NCBI RefSeq assembly: GCF_963677155.1
Contig: NZ_OY781884.1
Span: 3,096,501-3,160,500 of the forward strand
Direction: 5' to 3'
DNA: 64,000 nucleotides
Origin: an uncultured Draconibacterium sp.
GTDB taxonomy: Bacteria > Bacteroidota > Bacteroidia > Bacteroidales > Prolixibacteraceae
Shown here: positions 17,928 through 23,100 of the stretch, one piece after another
How positions within the stretch are numbered: position 1 is the stretch's first letter
How the letters are laid out: every line of letters begins with the position of its first letter
The notes under the pieces: model-generated
Databases searched by the model: none
What the model was told of the DNA's origin: nothing
What the model saw: the letters and a program-made list of their open reading frames with translations, nothing else
Made by a program: the position numbers and the translations under genes

Positions 17928-18005
17928 GATGAAAATGGAACGCTGATGCACTGGTGTAGCTGATTCTCACAGAAAGCTACTAAGGGATCGGAAACAATGC
18001 TTACT

Positions 18006-18044
18006 AAGACCTTCAGGGTTTCGAAAAACCTTGAAGGTCTTTTG
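18006..18044 (+). terminator. Terminator after alaS
   Basis: AAGACCTTCAGGGTTT pairs with AAACCTTGAAGGTCTT with one mismatch, around a short CGAA loop, followed by TTTGTTTTG. It lies 79 bases after the alaS stop and just outside the insertion sequence. Confidence 0.8.
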
Positions 18045-18132
18045 TTTTGAGATGCCCCTTTTGCTTGTCGGTAGTGCAAAAAACAGTCGTTGTCTTATAC
18101 TAAAATAGCTTGACTAAAAAAGTTAAGCAAAA

Positions 18133-18537
18133 ATGAAAAAAATCAGCACTAACCTTTCGGATAATATGGAAGGTTTTAATCAGAAAAAAGTAGATTACAG
18201 TAATTACGAGACCAGTTTTCGGCGTTGGTTAATAGCCGAACTTGATTCCGGACGGATGAGTGTGACTGAAGCTCGTGAAAAATTTAATTTACCACATCGA
18301 TTTGATAAGACGTACAAGCACTGGCAAGTCAAATATTCCGACGAAATCCACTTATCTTTGCAGTCTATGAGTTCAAAAGAAAGAGCAGATAACAAGGCCT
18401 TGGAAAAACGCATCAAAGAGCTGGAGAAGCAGCTGGAACTGGCGCAGATGAAAAACGTTGCGCTGAACACCATGATCGACATTGCCGAGAACGACTACAA
18501 ACTCGAGATCAGAAAAAAGTCTGGCCCCAAGCAGTAG
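18133..18537 (+). CDS. IS3-family OrfA (DNA-binding subunit)
   Basis: A 134-residue OrfA. The N-terminal half contains a helix-turn-helix (RMSVTEAREKFNLPH), which binds the element's ends. The C-terminal half is a leucine-zipper-like coiled coil (ALEKRIKELEKQLELAQMKN) for multimerisation with the transposase. The last codons contain the slippery heptamer A AAA AAG, after which a -1 shift enters the OrfB frame with no stop before the orfB ATG. Without the shift the product ends at the TAG at 18535-18537. Confidence 0.88.
   Translation: MKKISTNLSDNMEGFNQKKVDYSNYETSFRRWLIAELDSGRMSVTEAREKFNLPHRFDKTYKHWQVKYSDEIHLSLQSMSSKERADNKALEKRIKELEKQLELAQMKNVALNTMIDIAENDYKLEIRKKSGPKQ
18513..18519 (+). other. 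Programmed -1 frameshift site of the IS
   Basis: The heptamer A AAA AAG lies in the correct phase in orfA (codons AGA AAA AAG). A -1 slip continues in the orfB frame through 18519-18551 with no stop, so an OrfAB fusion transposase can be made. A hairpin follows: GTACCCGCT at 18554-18562 and AGCGGTAC at 18572-18579, about 35 bases downstream. A. the heptamer and open frame are seen directly; B. their use in translation is inferred from known IS3 elements. Confidence 0.8.
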
Positions 18538-18551
18538 GTGTACTAACGCAC

Positions 18552-19472
18552 ATGTACCCGCTAACAAGCAAAGCGGTACTGTGCGGACTGTTTGGGTTTA
18601 GCCGTCAGGCCTGGTACGACAGCAAAAAGCGCCAGTCGGGGCTTCAAATGCAGGAAGTATTTATATTAACATTGGTAAAAGAGCTGCGTGGGGATCACCC
18701 TCGCATGGGGGCCGAGAAGCTCCATCATTTGATAGCGCCGCAGTTACAGGACCATAATATTAAATATGGACGTGACAAATTCTACTACCTTTTGCGCGAA
18801 CACGGTTTATTGGTAAAACGTAAAAGAAGAGGACCTAAAACCACGAATTCGAACCATTTTTACCGTAAATATTCCAACCTGATCCGGGAGATAGAACTAC
18901 TCAGCTCAGGGCGCTTATGGGTGAGCGACATTACCTATATCCGCACCGAAAAAGGCTTTGTTTACCTTTCACTGGTAACCGATGCCTATTCGAAGAAGAT
19001 AGTAGGCTGGTGCCTCTGGCCCGATTTAACCAGCGAAGGGGCATTAAACGCCTTGCGTATGGCAGTTGCAGGCGAGGGAGTGAAACAAGGTCTCATCCAT
19101 CATTCTGACCGGGGGATACAATACTGTTGTAACGACTATGTGAACTTTCTGAAGGGCTCGAAAATAAATATCTCGATGACCGAAAACGGCGATCCGTACG
19201 AAAATGCAATAGCCGAAAGGGTTAATGGGATTTTAAAGGACGAATACGATTTAAACCATACATTTTCTGATTATCGGGAAGCGCTTGAAGCCACAAAAGT
19301 TGCGGTGTACAAATACAACAACAAACGGCCTCACCGCAGCGTAGACTTCATGTTTCCAACAGATGCACACTTGCATACAGGAGTACTAAAAAAACACTGG
19401 AAAAAGCGGCATTATAAGGCGAATGCGGAAACAGGGGAAAGCCTGCAGAGTGTTCCTGCAAACCAGGATTAA
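18552..19472 (+). CDS. IS3-family OrfB transposase (DDE integrase)
   Basis: A 306-residue OrfB with an N-terminal HTH_21-like segment (HPRMGAEKLHHLI) and an rve integrase core. The catalytic triad is complete: D126 in WVSDITYI, D186 in HHSDRGIQY and E222 in AIAERVNGILKDEY, giving the DDE spacing of 60 and 35 residues typical of IS3. The protein ends in KYNNKRPHRSVDFMFP, the usual C-terminal motif. It is probably made mainly as an OrfAB fusion by frameshifting, although the ATG at 18552 could allow separate translation. Confidence 0.93.
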   Translation: MYPLTSKAVLCGLFGFSRQAWYDSKKRQSGLQMQEVFILTLVKELRGDHPRMGAEKLHHLIAPQLQDHNIKYGRDKFYYLLREHGLLVKRKRRGPKTTNSNHFYRKYSNLIREIELLSSGRLWVSDITYIRTEKGFVYLSLVTDAYSKKIVGWCLWPDLTSEGALNALRMAVAGEGVKQGLIHHSDRGIQYCCNDYVNFLKGSKINISMTENGDPYENAIAERVNGILKDEYDLNHTFSDYREALEATKVAVYKYNNKRPHRSVDFMFPTDAHLHTGVLKKHWKKRHYKANAETGESLQSVPANQD

Positions 19473-19619
19473 AAAATAATACTGTAAGAAACTACAGGAG
19501 GATAAAATTTACCTGTCGCCAGTTTTAGGGCATACACAAAATCATGTCGGACTTTGCAGAAACAAAAAATGAAAACGCAGGAAAGAACAGTAAAGAAAAA
19601 CTTAGTAGTTTTGTAAAAC

Positions 19620-19644
19620 AGTAAATGAGAAAAAATCATTTACT
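19620..19644 (+). repeat. 9-bp inverted repeat before the 21-bp array
   Basis: AGTAAATGA at 19620-19628 and TCATTTACT at 19636-19644 are perfect inverted arms around a 7-base A-rich loop. They lie between the IS right end and the phased TCCTAC array and flank the ATG of a possible 82-codon frame. Confidence 0.6.
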
Positions 19645-19696
19645 CCTATCAGTAAAGAAAGTAATAATCTGTCAAGCTATTTTAGGAAAGGTCACG

Positions 19697-19880
19697 TCCT
19701 ACGTTGGAATAATGGTTTCCTACAATGAAAAATTGCCTTCCTACACCGAAAAGAACCGCTCCTACACAAAAAAAATGTCATCCTACACTGAAAAAACTAC
19801 GTCCTACATTGGTGAACCTATCTCCTACATTACATTTGTCTTGTCCTACAGGTGTAGGACGAGCATTTTGTAGCGTAGGA
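19697..19880. repeat. 21-bp phased TCCTACA array, direct then inverted
   Basis: TCCTAC occurs at 19697, 19718, 19739, 19760, 19781, 19802, 19823 and 19844, exactly 21 bases apart eight times, and seven of the eight continue with A. The complement GTAGGA then occurs at 19854 and 19875, again 21 apart. Where orientation switches, TCCTACA-GG-TGTAGGA forms a palindrome (19844-19859). The 14-base spacers are different from each other, but in copies 2-5 hold A-runs at similar phase. One frame (19625-19873) reads a Ser-Tyr heptad repeat, yet Ser is always TCC and Tyr always TAC, pointing to DNA-level constraint. The remaining sequence from the IS end to ccsBA holds no recognisable gene. Confidence 0.85.
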
Positions 19881-20133
19881 GCGATGATATTCGCCCTTTT
19901 TTTGTCATTTTGATATTTACAACCCAATTTCGCTGCAAAAAAACGAAACAAAAACTTCCTGCCTCGTTCGCTTCCCATAATCCGCAGAGAAAAAGTAGCA
20001 GACGGGCTTTTGTTTTGTTTCTTTTTTTGATTTGTTCTAAATAAGGATTATTTTCAGCAACTATTTTGTTTGGAAATAGTTATTCCAATTGTTCCTAAAC
20101 AAAAGACTTATAACTAAAATCGAAAAATTAAAG

Positions 20134-23100
20134 ATGAAGAAATTCTTTGCGTTTATAACATCCATACCGTTCGCGGCATTTATTTTTCTCGCGCTTGCTT
20201 TTTCAATGGCTGTGGCCACATTTATCGAAAGCAGTTATGGCACACCAACTGCCCGTGCGTTGGTGTATAACACGCACTGGTTCGAGGTACTTTGGGGGCT
20301 GTTTGCACTCAATCTTATCAATAACATGTTTCGTTACCGGTTTTTCACCAACAAACGTTACACATTGGGTATTTTCCACATGTCGTTTTTGGTGATGATA
20401 CTGGGAGGTGCAGTTACCCGTTTCATTAGTTTCGAGGGAGTAATGCACATTCGCGAAGGACAGAGTGCTGATTATATTCTTTCAACCAACGATTATTTTT
20501 ATGCCGGATTTGAAGGACAGGAAAAAGTGTCGCACGTGCGATTCTCGGAGGTTACGCCAAAGCAGTTTTCCACGAAGATGGATGTAAACGGAAAAGCGGT
20601 AAAAGTAAAAGCCGTTGGTTTTATCGAAAATGCTGAAAAAAAGGCCATCGCTTCCGATTCGGGCGAGCCGGTAATCGACTTTGTTTTTTCAGCGCCCAAT
20701 ACCCAGGGAATGCAATCGTTTTCGTTTAAAGAAGGAGATGTGTTGGATTATCCCGGTTTTTCTGCCGGTTTTGAAGTTAATGATGAAAAAGTGATCAACT
20801 TCTTTATGCAGGATGGAGCTTTGTTTATGACTTCTTTTGCGCAACTGGAAGAAACAACTATGGCTACGCAGGAGACGGTTAACTTATCTCCGGGTGATAC
20901 AATTCCGGTTAAACCAATGTTTTTATATGGTTATGATAATTTCCGCTTCCTGATTCGGAAATTCCTGCCAAGTGCTACATTTACGGCAGTAAAAAGCCAG
21001 ACCGAAACAGGTGAAGATGCTGTGATGGTGCAGATTTCTGATGGTGTGCGACAGCAAAATATTCCGGTGTTTGGTCATTCAGGGCAACGCGCAGATACTG
21101 TACGCGTGCCGCTGGGCAACGGTAATTTAAAACTGGCCTATGGCGCGCTGCCGCTGCAAGTGCCATTTAGTATTTATTTAAAAGATTTTCAGTTGGAGCA
21201 TTATCCTGGATCGAATTCTCCGTCGTCGTTTGCTTCGGAAGTTGTTTTGGTCGATCAGGAAAAAGGCATTAACGAGGATATTCGCATTTTTATGAATAAC
21301 ACTTTAAATCACCGGGGCTATAAGTTTTTTCAATCGTCGTACGATCGCGATGAACAGGGAACAATTCTTTCGGTGAATTACGATTTTTGGGGAACATGGA
21401 TATCGTACCTCGGTTATATTTTGCTTATTGTTGGTGTAATTCTGTCGTTGGTAAATCCAAATTCGTATTTCCAGTATCTGGCAAAAAAACTAAAATCCAG
21501 TTCGGTAAAAGTAATTGCAATCCTGGCTTTGTTGAGTAGTGTGGCTTTTTCTGCATCGGCACAAAGTGGTGTTGGCGCGGGAATTCCCTCGATTGACAAA
21601 GAAGTAGTAAAAGAATTTAGCGAATTGTGGGTACAAGGTGTTGATGGACGTATTGAGCCGGTATCTACGCTGTCGGGCGAAATCGTTCGTAAAATAAGCC
21701 GTAAATCCGGATTATATGGTTTGTCTGCCGATGGGGTGGTGCTGAGCATGATGGCGTATCCCGAAATCTGGCAATCGATGCCCATTATAAAAGTGGGAGA
21801 TAAATCGCTGGAGATGGCACTTGGTGCACAGAATAAATACATTACCATTCAATCGCTGTTTGATGAAAACGGTAATTATAAAATATCAGATGCTGTGCGG
21901 GCGGCTTATGCTAAAGCGCCGGGAATGCGCAACCGAATGGATAAAGAGTATATTAATGTTGATGAGCGGGTAAATATCTGTTTTATGGTATTTCAGGGTT
22001 CTATGTTTCATCTTTTCCCGCGCGAACGGGTGGAAGATAGCTGGTATGCACCAGGAAGTGCTGCTGTTGAATATTCTGATGGCGATTCTATATTTATACA
22101 AAGTGGATTTCAGCTGCTGTTGCAATCGATTACCGAAAAACAAAGTGAGAATGCTGTGCAGGTATTGCAAGCGGTCGATAATTTTCAGGCGAAATACGGA
22201 GCTGATCTCTTACCCGGAGAAAAGAAGAAAAACGTTGAGATTCTTTTCAATAAAGTCAATCCGTTTAAACGCATTTTTCCGTTTTACCTGTTGTTTGGTT
22301 TCTTGCTGTTGACGGTACTTTTTATCAACATTTTCAGGCAAAAGCAATTACCGTCGTTTTTAAAGTATTCGTTTTTCGGATTCATTATAATCCTGTTTTT
22401 AGTACACACCGTTGGATTAGTTGTACGTTGGTACATATCGGGACATGCGCCGTGGAGTAACGGTTACGAATCGGTGGTGTATGTTGCGTGGGCAACCATG
22501 CTGGCCGGAATTATTTTTGGACGGAAATACCCAATGGTTGTGGGTACTGCAGCATTTTTAACCGGAATTGCGCTCTTTGTGGCTCACCTCAGTTGGATGA
22601 ATCCGGAGGTGACCAATCTGGTGCCGGTGCTTAAATCGTACTGGTTAGCTATCCATGTGGCGATAATTACGGCCAGTTACGGATTTCTGGGACTGAGTAT
22701 GTTTCTTGGAGTTTTGGTGATGCTATTAATCGTTCTGCGAAGAAGCGTGAACGAGATAAAAGTAAACGGCTTTATTGAGCAGCTTACAACAATTAACGAA
22801 ATGTCGGCAACGGTTGGTTTGTATTTTCTTACCATCGGGACTTTTCTTGGTGGCGTGTGGGCTAACGAAAGCTGGGGCCGCTACTGGGGCTGGGATCCGA
22901 AAGAAACCTGGGCACTTATTACTGTAGTGGTTTACTCGTTTATTGTACACATGCGATTGATTCCTTCATTGAAGGGAATTTTCAATTATAATTTTGCGTC
23001 GATACTTGGTTTTGCTTCGGTAATGATGACCTATTTTGGCGTCAATTATTACCTCTCAGGATTACACTCCTACGGAAAAGGTGTTGCCGATGGAGTTGAT

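Follow-up and report, generated by a model that had tools for sequence, protein, structure and literature searches.

In the Rep–iteron, ParR–parC and TubR–tubC systems, one protein gene lies beside phased direct repeats, and related proteins differ in site specificity. A second kind of association is that of REP/BIME repeats with RAYT transposases, in which the REPs are GTAG- or CGTC-tagged (PMC3733652); the specific insertion of insertion sequences (ISs) into REPs is a known parallel to the insertions reported below (PMC1525189).

The array investigated here lies in a window of 64,000 nt, the whole stretch of DNA analysed, on contig NZ_OY781884.1 of an uncultured Draconibacterium sp. (genome G000). 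Its more complete relatives are cassettes of a protein gene and an array. Like iteron origins and partition sites, these combine phased direct repeats with one protein gene next to them; they differ in being chromosomal where the context is known, in carrying the array 3′ of the gene, and in occurring as several differently tagged copies per genome. The plasmid or replicon context of such systems was not found in plasmid, phage, or viral-contig searches: the protein of locus L088 gave no tblastn hit in 72,556 plasmid and 50,697 phage records, and viral contigs yielded no relatives of the cassette protein. The likeness to REP/RAYT systems is that intergenic tagged repeats are apparently paired with a candidate repeat-recognising protein family, and that both REPs (PMC1525189) and these arrays are targeted by specific ISs. 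The arrays here differ in consisting of tandem 21-bp non-palindromic units, with a private word at each locus and few copies, and the accompanying protein is of no known family, with no Y1 transposase found nearby. No description of the gene–array cassette was found in a lexical search of open-access PMC full text (titles and abstract starts).

In the window, eight direct TCCTAC words occupy 19697..19849 of the forward strand at exact 21-bp spacing (19697, 19718, 19739, 19760, 19781, 19802, 19823, and 19844), each unit being TCCTAC plus 15 nt, and GTAGGA follows at 19854 and 19875; all ten positions agree exactly with the original prediction. On the opposite strand the word is GTAGGA, the tag of this type of element. 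The 21-bp pair pattern has eight matches in the window, against a mean of 0 over 100 dinucleotide shuffles, none of which reached eight, and a single one of the 128 window tiles (500 nt each), that holding the array, has a 21-bp chain scoring at least 24. The ten hexamers are genuine and far exceed chance. The distance of 254 bp from the array to the ATG of ccsBA (20134) had also been given correctly. A small palindrome, TCCTACAGGTGTAGGA, had been reported where the orientation switches; it is present, and its size is to be revised, since 19823..19880 forms an imperfect dyad of 58 bp, all in the same register, at the end of the array, with TCCTAC units 7 and 8 mirrored by GTAGGA at 19854 and 19875. 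Inside it are the conserved sequences TTACATTTGTC and TTTTGTA, and what we take to be a promoter-like box (TAnnTTTG). There was no Rfam match at E≤1 in window positions 18000–21000. Comparison with the corresponding loci of G032 and G035 also marks a minus-strand hairpin, AACGA..TGCCTCGTT, at 19942..19968. By eye, a matching hairpin with a T-run ends the cognate gene in gene-bearing relatives, on the strand opposite to the array, and the window hairpin may be the relic of a lost gene end.

On its other side the array is bordered by an IS at 18091..19694 of the forward strand, presumably of the IS3 family from its orfA/orfB layout (orfA 18133–18537; orfB/rve 18552–19472, Pfam rve). Its inverted ends, TGTCTTATACTAAAATAGCTTGAC and TGACCTTTCCTAAAATAGCTTGAC, are 24 bp long and identical at 20 of 24 positions (4 mismatches). 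Copies of the target site CGT are at 18088–18090 and 19695–19697, the last base of the latter being the first T of the first TCCTAC. The IS end had been placed 160 bp from the array; the transposase stop is at 19472, but the IS appears to run to 19694, with CGT target copies on either side of its span, so that it abuts the array, its right end being 2 bp before the first word. The uninterrupted site, with the sequence CAGTCGTCCTACGTTGGAATAA, is found at the ccsBA locus of G031 (L058), where a single unit is left and the whole palindrome is gone. Further upstream, the stretch after alaS at 17938–17985 is one that we take to resemble the CTGAT/GCAGA short-period intergenic repeats of Bacteroidota, and a strong hairpin follows at about 18006–18043.

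This IS has a preference for such arrays. Allowing at most one mismatch, its right end was found at 21 places in 7 of the 37 Draconibacterium genomes (reversed control, 1), and outside 11 of these 21 ends, the window included, there is a 21-bp chain scoring at least 24, compared with 0 of 162 control tiles. Five of the 11 abutting arrays have other words and no gene of the family in the fetched locus, the words of L407, L421, L422 (own genome), L409, and L410 being ATTCCC, TTTCCG, CCTTGG, GTTGAT, and CTTACA. Two further ends (L406 and L415) adjoin a gene of the family. At L412, a weak CTTCCG array (score 23) lies at the same IS in a fetched locus without the gene family, and another gene, of 237 aa and with no Pfam match, is present on the array side. 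At L362 in the window's own genome (1874900–1878600), the IS is directly behind gene copy 1 with no array on its far side; there the array seems to have been replaced by the IS.

Related arrays are present across the genus. The absence of repeated TCCTAC units from relatives had been named as evidence against a functional array; three exact units were found in 15 of 37 same-genus genomes (reversed control, 1/37). With a covariance model trained on 15 copies of the 60-nt palindrome region, at least 32 distinct places were identified in 15 of the 37 Draconibacterium genomes at E<1e-3, a lower bound, with 148 candidates scored per genome and most places matched on both strands; positive genomes have at least one to five places each. 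The layout is one of ~21-bp units with the 58-bp palindrome as the end of the array. In other copies other words are mirrored in their own palindrome (TCCGCA/TCCGCT, TTCTCCCA, and TCCTCCGA/TCCTTGATC), and TCCGCAG, GATAAC, and TACTCG also occur, as does TCCTGCA in a weaker model match in G007 (E 0.015). The unit is 20 bp in some copies. The place matched by the three exact units lacks such a palindrome in G003 and G004, G003 having the palindrome elsewhere, and the match in G026 is a tandem repeat of homogeneous units where a contig begins. Among 66 arrays with non-palindromic words, 27 hold at least two exact inverted words and 23 hold none, so the palindrome is not universal. In the TCCGCA-type arrays L285, L287, and L291, neighbouring spacers alternate A-runs and T-runs, giving a 42-bp superperiod, and in the predicted fold of L291 neighbouring spacers partly pair with each other.

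The array at the ccsBA locus is orthologous in G000, G005, G009, G027, and G034. The word there is TCCTAC in five species, TCCTCCGA in G036, and TCCGCAG in G003 and G035; in G007 and G032 the locus has no array. A constant link to ccsBA, raised earlier, is not borne out, as other copies adjoin unrelated genes and the word at this locus varies. The statement that the hexamer is kept while the spacer drifts is upheld by the comparison of G000 with G005, in which 0 of 36 word sites and 25 of 76 spacer sites differ (P=1.7e-5). Likewise, G000 and G034 differ at 1/42 word and 24/90 spacer sites (P=5.7e-4), and G005 and G009 at 0/36 and 10/75 (P=0.029). Between G027, in which no gene of the family was found, and G034b the figures are 3/42 and 9/89 (P=0.75), so that here words have lost their better preservation over spacers. 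Over ten non-independent pairs, 14 of 378 word sites and 216 of 794 spacer sites differ.

Several of the arrays are 3′ of homologous genes encoding a protein of ~250 aa with a basic C-terminal tail. The protein is probably all-helical, as judged from a poor AlphaFold model (mean pLDDT 48.7, two-row alignment). Searches of Pfam, PDB, PHROG, and PADLOC found nothing worth naming (best stray E values 0.0033 and 0.0096), with no match to PADLOC anti-phage defence families among four cassette proteins. The body has a weak likeness to NCBIfam NF052641, 'PQLLE family protein' (L333, own genome, E 7e-8, 32 bits; L326, 2e-5), far below the 80-bit curated cut-off, and no paper was found for that name in open-access PMC full text. 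No curated cut-off in Pfam or NCBIfam was reached and no solved relative was identified. The gene was found in 23 of the 37 genomes of the genus and 49 of the 140 of the family; a phylum sample of 394 other genomes yielded one, with a weak match. A homologue that shares 37% identity with the first alignment row is present in an Aminicenantes metagenome-assembled genome (MAG), in which contamination is possible (L160); there, the gene is followed by a terminator-like hairpin and then by ~15 GTAGGAA units. Another contig of the same MAG carries a second similar array (L164).

The association between gene and array was assessed from 81 gene loci, 41 located by search, 39 picked by hand from the family listing, and L160, leaving aside L323 (partial), L332 (weak, outside the family), and family-listing matches that were not fetched. 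L307 was dropped for its short 3′ flank, giving 80 copies that are not a random sample of the family listing. A 21-bp chain scoring at least 24 is present in the 3′ flank of 68 of the 80 (61 at a score of at least 30) and 12 are below the threshold; if L160, discovered by way of its array, is set aside, the figure is 67/79. The best of six other periods gave 4/80 (0 at a score of at least 30), the maximum of five shuffles of the 3′ flanks was 0/80, and no array was found in 41 5′ flanks or in 162 tiles taken as controls from RAYT loci and further ccsBA loci. Phased repeats adjoin the protein gene, which is presumed to be cognate from the covariation of tail and word.

The words are private to the gene copies. 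In many groups the word goes with the tail: NKxYxxxK with GTAGGA, NKHRSSG with GGGAGAA, NKHKKS with GGTGATAA, NKKNKPG with CTGCGGA (one copy), xNRK with ACAGG, xHRKQ with GCAGGA, KNSRK with TAC[TC]CG, NGRR with GCGAGC, and DQRK with GCGAGG. In the 58 of 80 copies with an array scoring at least 24, a GY tail, and a word that is not homopolymer-like, the partial correlation of tail identity with word similarity, given body identity, is 0.365 (0/2000 permutations, maximum 0.165). With bodies at least 75% identical, tail identity is 75% in same-word pairs (n=59) and 35% in different-word pairs (n=39). By body identity, r is 0.79 at 0.80–1.0, 0.68 at 0.65–0.80, 0.59 at 0.55–0.65, 0.18 at 0.45–0.55, and 0.03 at 0.30–0.45. 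Among genes with bodies less than 65% identical, a similar word (≥0.70) was reached through the nearest tail in 24 of 58 cases and through the nearest body in 15 of 58. L315 and L328 have bodies that are 98% identical, with unlike tails and unlike words. Tails and words do not correspond strictly one to one: three dissimilar tails are found with GCAGG words, and the GTAGGA-like tail of L308 goes with mixed CGGAGGA/TCAAGGA words.

In the genome of the window there is a second GTAGGA array (G000b; C1:2028792–2028956). In G032 a GTAGGA-type gene lies beyond the palindrome of this locus; in G000 the gene has been deleted, the palindrome end jumping to the region upstream of the gene in G032, with GGG at the junction. 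All three gene copies of G000 have other tail types, two of them with arrays, whose words are GCGAGCT and GGCAGTTTAA, and the third with the same IS where the array would be. The window array therefore looks like an orphan, since the GTAGGA-type gene is missing and none of the copies left carries a tail of that type. The inverted hairpin suggests that the ccsBA copy also once had a gene beyond its palindrome. In G007 there is a GTAGGA array with no gene of that type; the words of the three gene copies read there are GGTGATAA, GCAGGA, and GCGAGG.

The best explanation, to which we assign a probability of roughly 0.6, is that the window carries an orphan copy, lacking the gene, of the target array belonging to a cassette whose protein reads the word with its tail and coats its own locus. 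The full cassette would consist of the gene for the ~250-aa protein with its basic tail, a terminator-like hairpin in several copies, and about 4–20 tandem ~21-bp units with a 6–8-bp locus-private word, often with a palindrome. The tail would recognise the word in duplex DNA, the two-turn spacing of the units would put the bound molecules on one face, the palindrome would seed a dimer, and the protein would form a nucleoprotein array over its locus, with tail and word changing together. The window copy has also received an insertion of the IS with a preference for these arrays, and is now likeliest to be a relic, possibly still bound by some protein. Pure relics would not explain why words are still conserved at the ccsBA locus of G000, G005, and G009, genomes in which none of the gene copies read has a GTAGGA-type tail. 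Binding to duplex DNA is favoured because words occur in both orientations with a dyad that lacks RNA covariation, and because of the two-turn spacing, the words kept over drifting spacers, and the tail–word covariation.

Alternatively, the arrays might be transcribed and the tail might bind the words in RNA, for example in an RNA that acts as a sponge or in autoregulation from the 3′ side. RNA can be bound by short basic tails, the minus strand of the window array folds better than its shuffles (z −3.9), the array of L333 starts ~30 nt past the stop with no hairpin evident by eye, and 23 of the 66 arrays lack an exact inverted word. However, 27 of the 66 arrays hold inverted words besides direct ones, folding of the plus strand is weak (z −1.9), and in the palindrome, where 75.5% of the alignment cells pair in register, there is no RNA covariation above shuffles. 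Gene and array are separated by a T-run hairpin in L301 and L160 (by eye), and gene-less copies vary in their orientation to flanking genes. Action through RNA is accordingly judged to be quite unlikely. A similarly doubtful, if slightly less improbable, explanation requires no binding: the arrays would be minisatellites made by slippage and homogenised at each locus, with tail and array merely co-inherited or co-exchanged. Part of the covariation may indeed be linkage, because tail and array adjoin on the DNA. The correlation is absent in cross-genus pairs with bodies less than 50% identical (r=0.05, 306/2000 permutations), and spacers are slightly more alike in same-word pairs with bodies less than 65% identical than in different-word pairs (0.31, n=114, versus 0.24, n=964). 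Against this, the correlation holds in cross-genus pairs with bodies 50–65% identical (r=0.43, 0/2000 permutations), words are kept while spacers drift, and the spacing and the 3′ position recur in another phylum. Recent DNA exchange as the whole cause is argued against, since in same-word pairs with bodies below 65% word similarity is at least 0.72 and spacers are far less similar; in nine hand-picked cross-genus pairs the spacers are mostly unlike (0.31–0.42).

Mobilisation by RAYT as a REP/BIME-type repeat is very improbable. The word contains GTAG (GGAG in one variant), the position is intergenic, and the IS hot spot resembles those described for REPs (PMC1525189). Membership of this class was nevertheless rejected on its defining features: instead of a 20–40-bp palindromic unit with an unpaired GTAG/CGTC tag, the units are direct and only the array end is palindromic, most words lack GTAG, and the few places per genome found with the palindrome model are not a REP-like high copy number. 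None of ten Y1_Tnp (RAYT) loci examined among the many listed carries an array, and ten RAYT queries in tblastn over 228 loci matched two (L108 and L161), neither a Draconibacterium array. The original prediction had also left a choice between a protein-binding array (iteron-like or partition-like) and a small heptad-repeat protein; word conservation and tail covariation support the former indirectly, and the latter, as a Ser-Tyr or Val-Gly product, is scarcely credible. A repeat of 21 bp is seven codons, and of ten arrays checked the minus-strand Val-Gly frame is free of stops in eight (with stops in the other two) and the Ser-Tyr frame in six. However, the forward-strand ORF of 82 aa at 19625..19873 has its ATG within the IS and no Pfam match at E≤1, the Ser-Tyr frame has stops in the other four arrays (two in G005, one in G009, one in G034b, and two in G031), 20-bp units break the frame, and copies of the family differ in their words. 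The ORF is taken as spurious, and the array is therefore not considered to encode a protein.

If the preferred reading, a word-specific protein coating its own DNA, is correct, the complex may serve in silencing or insulation of the locus, in segregation, or in selfish maintenance. That the words are private suggests selection against cross-talk between paralogues. About evenly balanced is the broader proposition of a class of self-labelled loci, in which the tail residues of a helical protein would read a private 6–8-bp word repeated every two turns on the 3′ side of the gene, word–tail turnover would insulate paralogues, and an IS family would land on the arrays. Were the tail to read the word, these loci would be dozens of natural paired protein–DNA recognition experiments, with near-identical bodies and differing tails and words (NRK with ACAGG, HRKQ with GCAGG, and NSRK with TACTCG, for example). 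They would offer a compact recognition code and a new type of nucleoprotein array on the chromosome, and would account for the IS hot spots.

TCCTAC was rejected as a universal motif: outside the genus, four-unit repeats are no more frequent in the phylum sample (1 of 394 genomes) than the reversed control (2 of 395). The four-unit pattern was found in at least 115 stretches of genome contigs and 29 of viral contigs; 145 arrays from these loci were profiled by script, 14 of them displayed in full, and many resemble ordinary tandem repeats. Seven Paenisporosarcina loci (L096, L116, L138, L144, L153, L167, and L194), which have no member of the gene family, carry arrays in which four TCCTAC units are spaced by 21 bp, followed in six of the seven by TACAACTGAGC and a hairpin. 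Arrays of TCCTAC at 21 bp with drifting spacers are also present in Riemerella columbina (L125) and Polaribacter (L127 and L137), with hairpin-like sequence after the array in L125 and L127.
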